Assembly: GCA_024103175.1 (NCBI GenBank)
Contig: JAGFJE010000433.1
Span: 1-64,000 of the forward strand
Length of the DNA: 64,000 bases
DNA from: Phaeodactylibacter sp.
GTDB taxonomy: Bacteria; Bacteroidota; Bacteroidia; Chitinophagales; Saprospiraceae
Direction of reading: 5' to 3'
Part shown: in pieces, positions 7,759 through 40,475 of the stretch
Layout of the letters: the number at the start of each line of letters is the position of its first letter
Position numbering within the stretch: position 1 is the stretch's first letter
Notes under the pieces: generated by a model
What the model was told of the DNA's origin: nothing
Seen by the model: the letters and a program-made list of their open reading frames with translations, nothing else
The model's database searches: none
Made by a program: the position numbers and the translations under genes

Positions 7759-10700
7759 ATGAAAAGGAACAAGACTCTGCTCTTCCTGCTTCTGGCAGGA
7801 GGTTTTCTCTTTGTACATCCCGCAAATGCCCAGCAAAAAACGAAGGAATCCGCACCGGAAAAATTACAATACGAAAAAAGCCTGTACGATGCCATCCAGT
7901 GGCGAAATATCGGCCCTTACCGGGGCGGGCGCTCCTGTGCCGTTACCGGTGTTCCGGGCAAGCCCAATCTCTTTTACTTCGGCTCCACCGGTGGTGGGGT
8001 CTGGCGCACTAAAGACGGAGGGCAGAGCTGGGAAAACATCTCGGACGGTTTCTTCGGCGGTTCCATCGGCGCCGTTGCCGTTAGTGAATACGACCCGAAT
8101 GTGATCTATGTGGGCGGCGGCGAAAAAACCGTACGCGGCAATGTCTCCTTCGGGTATGGCGTATGGAAAAGCGTAGACGCGGGGAAGAGCTGGGAGCAGA
8201 TCGGCCTTCGGCAATCCCGCCATATTTCCCGTATCCGGATACACCCCCGGAACCCGGAACTGGCCTATGCCGCCGTGATGGGCGACCTCTATCAATCCAG
8301 TGAAGAGCGGGGCGTATACCGCACCGTAGATGGAGGCGCAACCTGGGAAAGAGTGCTTTTCGCCAATGCTGATGCCGGCGCTGTCGACCTTCTTCTCGAC
8401 CCCAATAACCCCCGGATCATTTTTGCTTCCACCTGGCGGGTGCGCCGTACGCCCTACAGCCTGGAGAGCGGAGGCGATGGCTCCACGCTCTGGCGAAGCA
8501 CGGATGGGGGGGATACCTGGGAGGACCTCTCCAAAAAAGAAGGGTTCCCTCAGGGGCTCAAAGGAATTATCGGCGTAGCCGTTTCGCCGGCCAATTCCAA
8601 CCGGGTTTGGGCCATTTTGGAAGCCAAAGACGGGGGCGTATTCCGCTCAGACGACGGCGGGGACAGCTGGGCCCGGCTCAACACCGACCGCGCCCTGCGG
8701 CAAAGGGCCTGGTACTACAGCCGCATTTATGCCGACACCCAGGATGAAGAGGTAGTCTACGTCGTGAATGTCCGCTACCACAAATCTACCGATGGAGGCA
8801 AAACCTTCAAACCCTACGTAGCTCCTCACGGCGACCACCATGACCTGTGGATCGCCCCGGAAGACAACCAGCGCATGATCATCGGCGACGACGGGGGCGC
8901 CCAGGTATCCTTTGACGGCGGGGAAAACTGGAGCACTTACCACAACCAACCTACCGCCCAATTCTACCGCGTTACCACCGACAACCACTTCCCCTACCGG
9001 ATATACGCTGCCCAGCAGGACAACTCCACCGTCCGCATTTTACACCGCACCGAATCCAGCGCCATATCCGAACGCCACTGGGAACCCACCGCCGGCGGAG
9101 AGAGCGCCCACATTGCAGTCGACCCCGAAGATGACGACATCGTCTACGGGGGCAGCTATGGGGGGTTCCTAACCCGGAAAAACCACCGCACCGGTGAAAG
9201 CCAGGCCATCAATGTCTGGCCGGACAACCCCATGGGGTACGGCGCCGAAGGCATGAAATACCGTTTTCAATGGAACTTCCCCATCTTCTTTTCCCCTCAT
9301 AACCCGGACAAACTGTACGCCGCCTCCAACCACCTGCACGTAACTTACAACGGCGGCCGCAGCTGGGAATTGATCAGCCCGGACCTGACCCGCAACGACT
9401 CTACCAAACTCGGCCCTTCCGGCGGCCCCATCACCAAGGACAATACCGGAGTGGAGTACTACTGCACCATTTTCGCCGCTGCCGAATCCCCTTACGAAGA
9501 AGGCCTGCTTTGGGTGGGCTCTGATGACGGCCTGGTTCACCTCTCCCGCGATGGCGGGAAAAACTGGGAAAACGCCACCCCTGCCCAGATGCCGGAATGG
9601 ATGATGATCAATAGCGTAGAGCCCGACCCTTTCACCAAAGGAGGGGCCTATATAGCCGGAACCCGCTACAAACTGGGGGATTACCGCCCCTACCTGTATA
9701 AGACAAAAGATTATGGCCAGAGCTGGCAGTTAATTACCGAAGGGATACCGGAGGAACACTTTACGAGAGTAGTACGCGCCGACCCCCGGCGGAAAGGGCT
9801 GCTTTACGCCGGCACTGAAACCGGTATGTACGTCTCCTTTGACGACGGGGCAAGCTGGCAGAAATTCCAACTCAACCTTCCCACCGTGCCCGTTACCGAC
9901 CTGGCGGTCAAGAACAACAACCTGATCGCAGCTACCCAGGGCCGCGGCCTGTGGATCATCGACGACCTCACTCCACTGCACCAACTCAACAGTGAGATAG
10001 CCAACAGCGGCTTTTTCCTTTACCAACCCGCCGATGCATACCGACTGGATGGAAGGCAGAACCCTAATGCAAAGAATGCCGGGACAAACCACCCGAATGG
10101 GGTGTTAACCTATTGTTACCTCAGCGAAATGCCGGAGGACACCTCCACGCTCATCACCCTGTCTTTCCTCGATGAAAGTGGCCGGCTGATCCGGGAATTC
10201 AGCAACCAGGCAAAGGACAAAGAGGATAAACTGGAAGTAGAAGCCGGATCTAACCTTTTCGTCTGGGATATGCACTACCCCAAAGCGAAGGACTTTGACG
10301 GTATGGTCCTCTGGTGGGCGGGGCTGAACGGCCCCAAGGCGCCCCCCGGCATTTACCGCGCGAGGCTGAAGGTGGGCGACAAAGAAACGGAACAGGCCTT
10401 CAACCTGTTGAGAGACCCCCGGAGTACCAGTACGGATGAGGACCTTCAGGCGCAATTCACCTTCATGCAGGAAGTCAACCGAAAGGTATCCGAAGCCCAC
10501 CAGGCCATCATCGATATACGGGAGATCCGCAAACAACTGGAACATTTCACAAGCCGCTGGGAAGGGAACGAGCCTAAGAAAGAACTCCTGGCAAAGGCAG
10601 AAGCCATAGATTCGGTAATGTCAGAAGTGGAAAAGGAGCTGTATCAGACCAAAAACCAGAGCCCGCAGGATCCGCTGAATTATCCCATTAAACTGGCCAA

Positions 10701-10914
10701 TAAACTGGCTCACCTCAACTCTTTGGCTGGCGTCGGCGATTTCCGCCCCACCGAACAGGCCTATCAGGCCAAACGGGAACTCACCGAAAGAATCGACGAA
10801 CAGCTGGCTGCCTTTTACGGTTTGAAAGAGAACGAGATCCCGGCATTTAACGCCATGGTGAAAAAGGCAGCTGTGGATGTGATCATTCTCGAAGAAAGCA
10901 AAGAAAACGAATAA
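7759..10914 (+). CDS. Large BNR/VPS10-type beta-propeller protein, exported
   Basis: A 1051-residue protein with a signal peptide (cut expected after PANAQ, about residue 25). It is filled with BNR/Asp-box repeats such as STDGGDTW, SDDGGDSW, SRDGGKNW and DDGASWQ, which build one or two beta-propellers of the sortilin/VPS10 type (residues about 45-720). The C-terminal third has a Fn3-like region (residues about 760-880) and a helical tail. Bacteroidota annotate such proteins as glycosyl hydrolase or VPS10-domain proteins, but no catalytic residues of a defined glycosidase can be pointed out, so enzyme activity is open. Its likely place is the periplasm or the surface. It follows the PDZ gene closely on the same strand. 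Nested inverted repeats begin right after the stop. Confidence 0.85.
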   Translation: MKRNKTLLFLLLAGGFLFVHPANAQQKTKESAPEKLQYEKSLYDAIQWRNIGPYRGGRSCAVTGVPGKPNLFYFGSTGGGVWRTKDGGQSWENISDGFFGGSIGAVAVSEYDPNVIYVGGGEKTVRGNVSFGYGVWKSVDAGKSWEQIGLRQSRHISRIRIHPRNPELAYAAVMGDLYQSSEERGVYRTVDGGATWERVLFANADAGAVDLLLDPNNPRIIFASTWRVRRTPYSLESGGDGSTLWRSTDGGDTWEDLSKKEGFPQGLKGIIGVAVSPANSNRVWAILEAKDGGVFRSDDGGDSWARLNTDRALRQRAWYYSRIYADTQDEEVVYVVNVRYHKSTDGGKTFKPYVAPHGDHHDLWIAPEDNQRMIIGDDGGAQVSFDGGENWSTYHNQPTAQFYRVTTDNHFPYRIYAAQQDNSTVRILHRTESSAISERHWEPTAGGESAHIAVDPEDDDIVYGGSYGGFLTRKNHRTGESQAINVWPDNPMGYGAEGMKYRFQWNFPIFFSPHNPDKLYAASNHLHVTYNGGRSWELISPDLTRNDSTKLGPSGGPITKDNTGVEYYCTIFAAAESPYEEGLLWVGSDDGLVHLSRDGGKNWENATPAQMPEWMMINSVEPDPFTKGGAYIAGTRYKLGDYRPYLYKTKDYGQSWQLITEGIPEEHFTRVVRADPRRKGLLYAGTETGMYVSFDDGASWQKFQLNLPTVPVTDLAVKNNNLIAATQGRGLWIIDDLTPLHQLNSEIANSGFFLYQPADAYRLDGRQNPNAKNAGTNHPNGVLTYCYLSEMPEDTSTLITLSFLDESGRLIREFSNQAKDKEDKLEVEAGSNLFVWDMHYPKAKDFDGMVLWWAGLNGPKAPPGIYRARLKVGDKETEQAFNLLRDPRSTSTDEDLQAQFTFMQEVNRKVSEAHQAIIDIREIRKQLEHFTSRWEGNEPKKELLAKAEAIDSVMSEVEKELYQTKNQSPQDPLNYPIKLANKLAHLNSLAGVGDFRPTEQAYQAKRELTERIDEQLAAFYGLKENEIPAFNAMVKKAAVDVIILEESKENE

Positions 10915-10920
10915 GCCTGC

Positions 10921-11163
10921 TTTGGCGGCAGGCAAGTAGCTATTTGGTATGTGTTTAGCGTCGAGGTGACATCTTTTTGCCCCTGTTCCTGGAAAATATG
11001 CTTATTCCTGGGGACTGAGGGGGCAAAAAGGTGTTATCTCGTCCTTTCCAGATGACACCTTTCGCCTTTGAAGGACAGTACTACAAGCTGAGGGTTCGGT
11101 GAATAGGCGAAAGATGTCACCTGGAGCACCGCTAAACACATACGCAATTTGCCTGCCGCCAAA
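10921..11163. repeat. Nested inverted-repeat element (outer stem around two hairpins)
   Basis: The terminal arms 10921-10935 and 11149-11163 are a perfect 15-base inverted repeat (tttggcggcaggcaa). Inside lies a perfect 14-base pair (10947-10960 with 11130-11143) and a perfect 13-base pair (10964-10976 with 11110-11122). Two further local hairpins are possible: 10964-10983 with 11020-11039 (17 of 20 match) and 11050-11067 with 11105-11122 (16 of 18 match). One long cruciform and two separate hairpins are thus mutually exclusive folds. No protein is encoded. It may act as transcript end of the BNR gene or be a small mobile repeat. Confidence 0.75.
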
Positions 11164-11557: not shown

Positions 11558-13909
11558 ATGAAGGACAGATGGATCAATTTCAAACTTCGATTTGCCGTAA
11601 GCTGGTATAATTTCTGGATCGACTATCCTGCTGCCGGATGGACGGTCAAAGGAGTCAAGGTTTTGCTGGTCCTGGCATTCATAGCGGGAAGCGCTTTCAT
11701 TGCCAGCATTGCCGCCGGCGCTTTTGGCAAACTTCCCAATGAAGAAGACCTGGCCGGCGTGACGCATTACGTCGCTTCTGAGGTTTATGCTTCCGACAGC
11801 ACCCTCCTGGGCCGCTATTATTTCGAGAACCGGAGCAATGTTAAATACAGGGATATCTCCCCCCATTTTATCAATGCCCTGATCGCCACTGAAGACGCGC
11901 GGTTCTTCGAACACAACGGAATAGACTTTCGGGCCTGGTTCCGGGTATTTTTCAAAACAATACTCAGCGGTGAGCGCTCCTCGGGAGGGGGAAGCACCAT
12001 CAGCCAGCAACTGGCCAAAAATATCTATCCCCGGGAAGATTACGGCAAATACTCCCTGATCATCAACAAGATCAAGGAAGTGTTCATTGCTATGCGCCTT
12101 GAAAAGTTGTACGACAAAGAGAAGCTTCTCGAGCTGTACCTGAATACGGTGCCGTTTAGTGAAAACACATTCGGGATCAAAGTCGCCGCCCAGCGCTTTT
12201 ACAATACCAGCCCCTCGCGGCTCACTCCTTCCCAGTCGGCCGTCCTGGTCGCCATGCTGAAGGCCACCACCGTATATAACCCGGTCTCCCAACCCCAGAA
12301 TGCGTTGGCCAGGCGCAACCTCGTCCTCGGGCAAATGGCAAAATACGGATACCTCTCCCGCCGGCTGGCCGACTCGCTGGTAAAAGAGCCCCTGTCGCTG
12401 AACTACTTTCCCATTACCCACAACAAGGGCCCGGCGCCCTATTTCCGGGAACACCTCCGGCTGGAGCTCAAAGAACTCCTCAAAGATAAACGCAAGCCCA
12501 ATGGCATGGCCTACAACATCTACACCGATGGGCTGAAGATATACACCAGTGTTAACGCCCGGATGCAGGCCATTGCCGAAAATGTGGTTGCCGAACAGAT
12601 GAAAAGCCTGCAGAAGGAGTTCACCCGGCACCTCAACGGCGCCGACCCCTGGGAAACGGAAGGGGTGCTGGAAATGGCAAAAAGACAATCCACCCGCTAC
12701 CGAAGCCTCCTCAACGCCGGGCTCGACAGTACAGGCATCGACTCCGTTTTTCGCATCCCGGTAGAAATGGAAGTCTTCAGTTGGAAGGGAGGCAAGGAAA
12801 AACGCAAGATGAGCCCCCTGGACTCCATAAAACATTACCTCGGCCTGCTCAACGCCGGCTTTCTGGCCCTCGACCCGAAAACCGGCGAAGTCCTGGCGTG
12901 GGTCGGCGGGATCAACCACGAATTTTTTCAATATGACCACGTTCTGTCTACGCGTTCGGTAGGCTCCACCTTCAAGCCTATCGTCTATGCCGCCGCACTG
13001 CAGAAGGGCATTCCTCCCTGCTCCTATTTCCCGAACCAGCTTCGGGTATATCCGCAGTACGAATACTGGATGCCCAAAAACGCCACCAATGAATACGGAG
13101 GGTATTACTCTCTGGAGGGAGGCCTGATCAACAGCGTCAATACCGTAACCGTTCAGCTGATGATGCAGGCCGGCCCGAAAAGTGTGGCCCGCCTGGCGCA
13201 CAGCCTGGGTATCGGTACGGAGATACCCGCCGTCCCGGCAATCGCGCTGGGCGCTGCCGATGTATCTCTGCGCGACATGGCCACCGTTTACAGTACCTTT
13301 GCCGCCCGGGGCGCCCGGCCCGAAGTGCATTACATCCGGCGCGTCGAAGCCCCGGATGGGGCCGTGCTCATCGATAACGAGTGGCAAAAAGATACCTGCA
13401 ACTGGGAACGCCCCCTGTGGGAAGAAGAAGCCGATATGATGAACCAGATGCTGCAGGCAGTCATTGACCGGGGCACCGGCCGGCGCATCCGCTACCGGTA
13501 TAATATGAAATATCCGTTAGCCGGCAAGACCGGCACCAGCCAGAACCACTCCGACGGATGGTTTATCGGCTATACGCCCCGGATCGTGGCCGGAGCCTGG
13601 GTGGGCGCCGAATCCCCCGCCGTGCGCTTCCGGGACCTCCGCCTGGGCCAGGGCGCCAATACCGGCCTGCCCATCGTCGCCTTCTTCCTGCAGGAGCTGT
13701 TTGAGGAAGAAAAGCTGAAAGGCTATGTGGATGCGCCCTTCCCCAGGCCGGGCGCAATGGCCGAGCAACTGCTCAGCTGCCCTCCGGTAGTATGGCCCGG
13801 AAAAGAAGAAGCTACCGAAGGAAAGGAAGGGGGAGAAGCCCCCGCCAAAACGGTAAGCAATGACGAAGCCCCCGCTCCTTCCGAAGCCACCGCCAAGCTG
13901 GAACAGTAA
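11558..13909 (+). CDS. Class A penicillin-binding protein (PBP1a type)
   Basis: A 783-residue bifunctional peptidoglycan synthase. A single membrane anchor spans about residues 33-55. The glycosyltransferase GT51 domain (about 80-260) shows its catalytic ATEDARFFEHNGID (Glu 112) and GGGSTISQQLAKN. The transpeptidase domain (about 420-700) has the serine nucleophile in GSTFKP (Ser 470), the SVN motif in NSVNTVT, and the KTGT triad element at residues 657-660 in AGKTGTSQNHSDGWF. It polymerises lipid II and cross-links stem peptides on the periplasmic side of the inner membrane. The C-terminal tail is Ala/Glu/Pro-rich and low in complexity. The gene stands alone and is followed 25 bases later by a strong terminator. 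Confidence 0.94.
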   Translation: MKDRWINFKLRFAVSWYNFWIDYPAAGWTVKGVKVLLVLAFIAGSAFIASIAAGAFGKLPNEEDLAGVTHYVASEVYASDSTLLGRYYFENRSNVKYRDISPHFINALIATEDARFFEHNGIDFRAWFRVFFKTILSGERSSGGGSTISQQLAKNIYPREDYGKYSLIINKIKEVFIAMRLEKLYDKEKLLELYLNTVPFSENTFGIKVAAQRFYNTSPSRLTPSQSAVLVAMLKATTVYNPVSQPQNALARRNLVLGQMAKYGYLSRRLADSLVKEPLSLNYFPITHNKGPAPYFREHLRLELKELLKDKRKPNGMAYNIYTDGLKIYTSVNARMQAIAENVVAEQMKSLQKEFTRHLNGADPWETEGVLEMAKRQSTRYRSLLNAGLDSTGIDSVFRIPVEMEVFSWKGGKEKRKMSPLDSIKHYLGLLNAGFLALDPKTGEVLAWVGGINHEFFQYDHVLSTRSVGSTFKPIVYAAALQKGIPPCSYFPNQLRVYPQYEYWMPKNATNEYGGYYSLEGGLINSVNTVTVQLMMQAGPKSVARLAHSLGIGTEIPAVPAIALGAADVSLRDMATVYSTFAARGARPEVHYIRRVEAPDGAVLIDNEWQKDTCNWERPLWEEEADMMNQMLQAVIDRGTGRRIRYRYNMKYPLAGKTGTSQNHSDGWFIGYTPRIVAGAWVGAESPAVRFRDLRLGQGANTGLPIVAFFLQELFEEEKLKGYVDAPFPRPGAMAEQLLSCPPVVWPGKEEATEGKEGGEAPAKTVSNDEAPAPSEATAKLEQ

Positions 13910-40440: not shown

Positions 40441-40475
40441 TAGATCTTCCAGATTTCGGAAATCTGGAAGATCTA
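40441..40475. repeat. Perfect 17-base palindrome
   Basis: The two 17-base arms (tagatcttccagatttc and its complement) are separated by one G, followed by atctttttat. It lies between divergent genes, so it is no obvious terminator. It may be an operator, a repeat element or a DNA cruciform. Confidence 0.8.

Follow-up and report, generated by a model that had tools for sequence, protein, structure and literature searches.

Bacterial MITEs, in the accessible part of their description (PMC10969869), are short, multicopy and intergenic sequences that carry terminal inverted repeats, are bordered by target duplications and fold strongly; they are found inserted into one another, and the palindrome of a MITE can serve as a target for IS1111. 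The ISBst12 group of IS66 comprises transposase-encoding elements with ends of the GTAnnTnnTYAG type and an 8-bp duplication, such as ISGka4, the element at our locus L222 (485-aa transposase) and ISDge4, for which the accessible part of PMC12898284 gives the ends GTGACTACTCAGCA/GTAACTGCTCAGCA, an 8-bp repeat and a 449-aa transposase. Another set of insertion sequences, composed of ISPsy8, ISPa11, ISPpu9/10 and ISRm22, inserts into the intergenic REP palindromes, at the symmetry axis in the case of ISPsy8 and ISRm22, with a REP consensus at the insertion point and repeats of 0-6 bp (Tobes and Pareja 2006, PMC1525189, in its accessible part).

The element described here lies in the window, by which we mean the whole 64-kb stretch of Phaeodactylibacter sp. 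DNA that was analysed. It has all the attributes of the MITEs cited above and differs from them, as far as the accessible part of that account goes, by its target rule, which is the insertion into palindromes at a fixed offset from the dyad. Its ends resemble those of the ISBst12 group, with a lower score than those of the true members, and its duplication has the length found in that group; with the REP-targeting insertion sequences it has in common the choice of intergenic palindromes. The class of the element is already known, and the shape-like target rule is unusual and deserves a test. RAG transposition is reportedly directed to hairpin or cruciform tips, the target being chosen by DNA structure; RAG is nevertheless a different enzyme with a different duplication length. 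Neither this element nor the targeting of hairpins by a MITE irrespective of their sequence was described in the literature consulted, which was chiefly open-access. The features of the locus are the following.

7759..10914, + strand: upstream gene, BNR/sortilin-like repeats, 1051 aa, ending 32 bp 5' of the element
10921..10935, + strand: left arm of the host hairpin, outside the element; the hairpin is uninterrupted at the orthologous site L208
10939..10946: left copy of the 8-bp target duplication, GCTATTTG, with one mismatch to the right copy
10947..11143, + strand: MITE with an interior of type I (two hairpins), 197 bp, with bounds common to the copies and perfect 14-bp terminal inverted repeats
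10947..10960, + strand: left terminal inverted repeat, GTATGTGTTTAGCG
10962..11041, + strand: internal hairpin A; nearly all copies have G-U at two wobble positions on the + strand
11047..11125, + strand: internal hairpin B; most copies carry A-C mismatches on the + strand that would become G-U on the - strand
11130..11143, - strand: right terminal inverted repeat
11144..11151: right copy of the 8-bp target duplication, GCAATTTG
11149..11163, + strand: right arm of the host hairpin, overlapping the right duplication copy by its first 3 bases
11558..13909, + strand: downstream gene, transglycosylase/transpeptidase (penicillin-binding protein), 783 aa

The comparison of the 243 bases extending from 10921 to 11163 with the genome of origin (G000), which the earlier note had recommended, revealed a multicopy sequence. 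It gave 55 matches, the inverted arm-to-arm matches of the palindrome included, and the long matches start and stop at or near positions 10947 and 11143 of the window. The element is matched wholly or partly at 41 places of this genome, that of the window included, and its 14-bp end occurs 85 times with at most one mismatch, of which 48 are exact, against a single occurrence for the control. Complete elements, i.e. those possessing both ends, number 27, of which 25 are in G000 and 2 in the congener G002. An 8-bp duplication surrounds 20 of these 27 elements with at most two mismatches (perfect in 16, one mismatch in 2 and two mismatches in 2); the remaining 7, for which no duplication is recognisable, were left out of the site counts. 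Two complete elements of G002 that were found later, and that are left out of the 27, have no duplication as aligned by our script (6 and 4 mismatches). The element is short and devoid of a transposase gene, the window copy containing no ORF of at least 80 aa. Because its ends are multicopy and are accompanied by 8-bp target duplications, the element at 10947-11143 is a MITE, known in kind, and the guess of a MITE made in the earlier note was right.

The same ends surround different interiors. In addition to type I, which is that of the window, an interior of type II is found at L072 and L073, the latter with a perfect duplication, and an interior of type III at L130 and L132 of G002, without duplication as aligned by the script. 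The interiors of L073 and L130 have no evident sequence in common with type I, and inverted repeats were abundant, by eye, in every MITE interior that was read. A further small palindrome of the CCCGAAAATATCGGG type is present within arm 2 at L009 and L024, in both arms at L032 and, in inverted form, within arm 3 at L069, L083 and L087; it makes a hairpin within a hairpin, perhaps swapped between the arms.

The earlier note had described three perfect arm pairs closing one large stem. The pairs are all present, with lengths of 15 bp (10921-10935 and 11149-11163), 14 bp (10947-10960 and 11130-11143) and 13 bp (10964-10976 and 11110-11122), but they are three separate things and do not constitute a single feature: the 15-bp pair is the host hairpin, the 14-bp pair is the terminal inverted repeat of the element and the 13-bp pair is a subterminal repeat inside it. 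The two competing hairpins reported at the same place are also present and correspond to hairpins A and B. The folding of both strands, recommended in the same note, gave stabilities far above those of shuffled sequences on each strand, since neither the fold of the + strand (-133.2 kcal/mol, z -12.6) nor that of the - strand (z -11.8) was equalled by any of 200 shuffles.

The orthologous locus was compared at L208 (G002), L209 (G001) and L211 (G031), the locus of G003 (L210) being set aside on account of a stop within the match. In the congener G002, an uninterrupted hairpin is found 3' of the stop codon and is followed by a sequence like that of the window; a hairpin is also present behind the orthologous gene in G001, and no obvious hairpin was seen at the locus of G031. 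In the occupied sites, all 34 folds have the host arms paired around the element, with 496 of their 506 pairs formed, and the nested appearance of the structure results from the ability of the host hairpin to close around an element which is itself palindromic. The idea that palindromic elements are unique in sparing the host hairpin was weakened by a control with shuffled elements, in which this hairpin is retained in 149 of 170 folds; its re-closing therefore shows tolerance and not design.

The target rule appears when the empty site is rebuilt by removing the element and one copy of the duplication. In 17 of 20 cases the rebuilt site lies in a palindrome of stem score at least 8, against 15 of 3187 random positions (0.5%) in the same loci; the 3 sites without a strong palindrome were left out of the offset count. 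In each of the 17 sites the dyad is displaced by 2.0, 2.5 or 3.0 bp from the middle of the duplication, and by exactly 2.5 bp in 12 of them. Of 2951 random positions taken in the vicinity of the elements, 54 are within 18 bp of a palindrome of this strength, and 5 of these 54 show that offset. In the case of 3-nt loops, the duplication is made of the loop and 5 bp of one arm (8 of 8 sites), and in the case of 4-nt loops, of the loop and 4 bp (2 of 2 sites). In contrast with the REP consensus and the repeats of variable length of the REP-targeting insertion sequences, the duplicated octamers are 17 different sequences for 17 sites, with one shape. A few of these octamers resemble each other, such as the pairs AGTTTTGG/GGTTTTGG and TTCCGTTG/TTCTGTTG, and some of the target palindromes are related, so that the sites are not fully independent in sequence. 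The location in palindromes, the constant dyad offset and the differing octamers together point to the recognition of a hairpin or cruciform shape, and we infer that recognition at the target is structural rather than based on sequence.

Called genes in tandem or convergent orientation flank 16 of the 20 sites and divergent ones flank 1; a further site has no called neighbour and 2 fall inside called ORFs, which we think are spurious. The reading of the targets as intrinsic terminators was rejected: a U-tract (at least 5 T in 8 nt) accompanies 1 of the 17 target hairpins, and the targets are thus not classical terminators. Some target arms are recurrent, one 16-bp arm having 7 occurrences, spread over 6 of the 77 loci that were examined in the own genome. 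Elsewhere in the window, an unoccupied 16-bp palindrome (40441-40475, TAGATCTTCCAGATTT CGG AAATCTGGAAGATCTA) resembles the sequence found beside element copies at other loci and is likely to be a free target.

The explanation that we consider highly probable is that a MITE was inserted in the loop region of a hairpin located 3' of the BNR gene, with the duplication of 8 bp, by a trans-acting transposase guided by the dyad. At insertion, the host palindrome would be extruded as a hairpin or a cruciform. The putative transposase, acting in trans on a non-autonomous DNA transposon with a 197-bp core, would take the dyad axis of the extruded structure as its reference in positioning the strand transfer, so as to insert the element into the loop region and to duplicate 8 bp. 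In the case of 3- or 4-nt loops, one joint would fall at the border between loop and stem and the second within one arm, at a distance of 8 bp. The host hairpin could afterwards re-close around the palindromic element; the same ends enclose two or three unrelated interiors rich in hairpins. A bolder proposal is that the transposase reads the shape of the extruded hairpin or cruciform regardless of its sequence, keeps a constant spacing between the dyad and the points of joining (one of which is the loop border when the loop has 3 or 4 nt) and serves several unrelated hairpin-filled elements having only the 14-bp end in common; to this general form we give an even chance of being correct. If the geometry reflects the choice of the target, the insertions would mark the places at which living cells form cruciforms or single-stranded hairpins, and would define a transposase able to read DNA shape. 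Palindromes located behind genes and able to re-close would offer a mobile element a niche at low cost, and such an element accounts for the origin of large nested palindromes that resemble complex RNAs.

The geometry could also be the product of survival: landing would be widespread and not directed by shape, and only the insertions into intergenic palindromes would persist, since with one palindrome lodged in another the hairpins at the 3' ends of genes continue to work and no gene is disturbed. The position of 16 of the 20 sites between tandem or convergent called genes, as well as the host hairpins that are still able to close around the element, agree with this view, which we nevertheless regard as unlikely. 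Selection alone should not yield a fixed dyad offset in 17 of 17 sites; the window contains only 7 palindromes of score at least 10, so that the greater part of intergenic DNA is devoid of palindromes and should be permissive too; moreover, the host hairpin would in most cases survive the insertion of a shuffled sequence, as the control mentioned above indicates. A REP- or BIME-type repeat propagated by a TnpA-REP (RAYT) transposase is, in our estimation, scarcely credible. The element is intergenic, palindromic and present in dozens of copies, as such a repeat would be, and its targets are palindromes of which some are recurrent, yet it measures from 66 to 339 bp among the 27 complete elements and possesses terminal inverted repeats and 8-bp duplications, whereas a REP or BIME is a short single palindrome without target duplication. 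The REP-like nature envisaged in the earlier note is contradicted by this size and by these duplications. The mobilisation of REPs via Y1 enzymes is not known to leave such a duplication.

The same note had evoked a structured RNA with switching folds, and a switch spread as a repeat under selection for its fold has to be weighed against the insertion of a MITE. The fold is very stable (z -12.6 on the + strand), two alternative sets of pairs exist, and the pairing is kept among the copies. The alignment used here contains 19 of 33 rows, all type-I copies, L072 with its unrelated interior and the elements outside 185-240 bp being left out. In the three-way fold, 89.5% of the cells are paired, a value reached by 6 of 500 shuffles and mostly due to the conservation of the sequence itself. 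The cells with changes on both sides of a pair, 12 against 6.2, are reached by 2 of 500 shuffles and all come from 2 pairs, and the covariation score, 0.069 against 0.060, is reached by 9 of 500, in a control that ignores the relatedness of the copies. On the other side, both-sided changes occur in 2 of 57 pairs only, below the shuffle mean of 3.4 (494 of 500 shuffles reach this number), and the further pair types are reached by 500 of 500. The alternative fold with a long hairpin (arm 1/arm 4, arm 2/arm 3) has both-sided changes in 2 of 43 pairs, which is equal to the shuffles, and its arm 1/arm 4 helix is nearly invariant. Furthermore, hairpin A pairs fully on one strand only and hairpin B on the other only, the interiors of L073 and L130 have the same ends and no evident sequence in common with type I, and no Rfam family reached the threshold within the window. 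Such patterns can arise from the relatedness of the copies and from template switching between the inverted arms, so that they make no good case for selection at the RNA level. The reading as an RNA switch is not supported, and we judge it very improbable. The covariation analysis that the earlier note had advised gave a divided answer, the pairing being maintained and the both-sided changes being few; the combination of a single copy and an unconserved pairing, with which that note considered its reading to be incompatible, is not what we found.

The insertion of a MITE by a trans-acting enzyme raises the question of the source of this enzyme. By eye, and among the matches listed for the own genome and 20 relatives, no pair of ends faces each other around a gene as in an autonomous partner, the only ends being those of separate copies. 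Neither PF03050 nor PF12762 was found in G000 and G002 (0 of 2 genomes for each), and in a search of 120 genomes PF03050 had no match in the own genome, G002 being outside the 38 genomes with a match. In the DNA examined at the ten PF01609 loci, no two MITE ends face each other at up to 4 mismatches, and one ISBst12-type transposase used as query gave no match in the own genome. The smallest contig examined in this 790-contig genome has 3,052 bases, so that collapsed IS contigs may be missing, and the lack of a cognate transposase of the ISBst12 group is to be read with an assembly that may be deprived of its short contigs.

The ISBst12 lead comes from the ends and from the 8-bp duplication. 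Among 88 loci with IS66-type matches (60 from genomes and 28 from plasmids, some of one record), 26 distinct sites were left by the search for GT...AC ends with at least 10/13 identity and a duplication with at most one mismatch. The 26 elements have similar ends (e.g. GTAACTATTCAGCG) and 8-bp duplications, both of which were required by the search; L169 and L171, whose ends match and which have no duplication (6 and 4 mismatches), stay outside this set. Scored on a matrix built from 23 distinct ends of ISBst12 type, the end of the MITE reaches 7.4 bits, whereas all members score at least 12.9. It nevertheless exceeds 99.97% of random 14-mers (P 3e-4) and 99.6% of those starting with GT (P 0.0035), for a family that was picked after seeing the data. 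The target sites also differ from those of the MITE: a stem score of at least 8 is found at 1 of the 26 sites, with an offset of 0, and stems of 6-7 at 7 of the 26, of which 2 have an offset of -3. On this comparison of ends and duplications, an ISBst12-type source enzyme for the MITE is a tentative proposal, to which we give somewhat less than an even chance. On a Paraburkholderia plasmid (L245:678-2154), an ISBst12-type element is centred, with an offset of 0, in a 15-bp palindrome.

The element was found in 2 of 60 genomes, the own genome and the congener G002. Its end alone has 14 matches in G002 against 2 for the control, 4 against 2 in G001, of the same genus, and a total of 14 against 26 in the other 18 of the 20 relatives' genomes. 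The element was absent from viral contigs in an exact 19-mer search and from plasmid and phage collections in a blastn search. Two exact 19-mer matches in other phyla (L120 and L121) were set aside, no element being visible by eye around either of them. The contig that bears a half copy (L124:1181-1275) is attributed to Candidatus Brocadia sp. WS118; the ORFs adjoining this half copy look like what we take to be exopolysaccharide genes of Bacteroidota, and a misbinning is therefore suspected. The element is known from one genus, plus this half copy in a contig filed elsewhere.

A second IS, considered as a possible mobiliser of the MITE, was rejected on the basis of its ends, which are CTAGGGTGTTCAGTTAA. 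It is represented at L145:690-2323 of G002 (1634 bp, with an ORF of 440 aa) and also at L037 and L144, and the pieces of related proteins from L037 and L025 had no Pfam or NCBIfam match over the cut-off. An end of this IS is joined to MITE arms at L025, L030, L037, L076, L079, L082 and L103, in junctions which, by eye, would form a CTAG-centred palindrome; at L091 and L140 it adjoins another sequence. A third end sequence, AGCGTGAGTTTACTACGG, is joined to the same MITE arm motif at L016 near position 2249 and at L019 near position 490.
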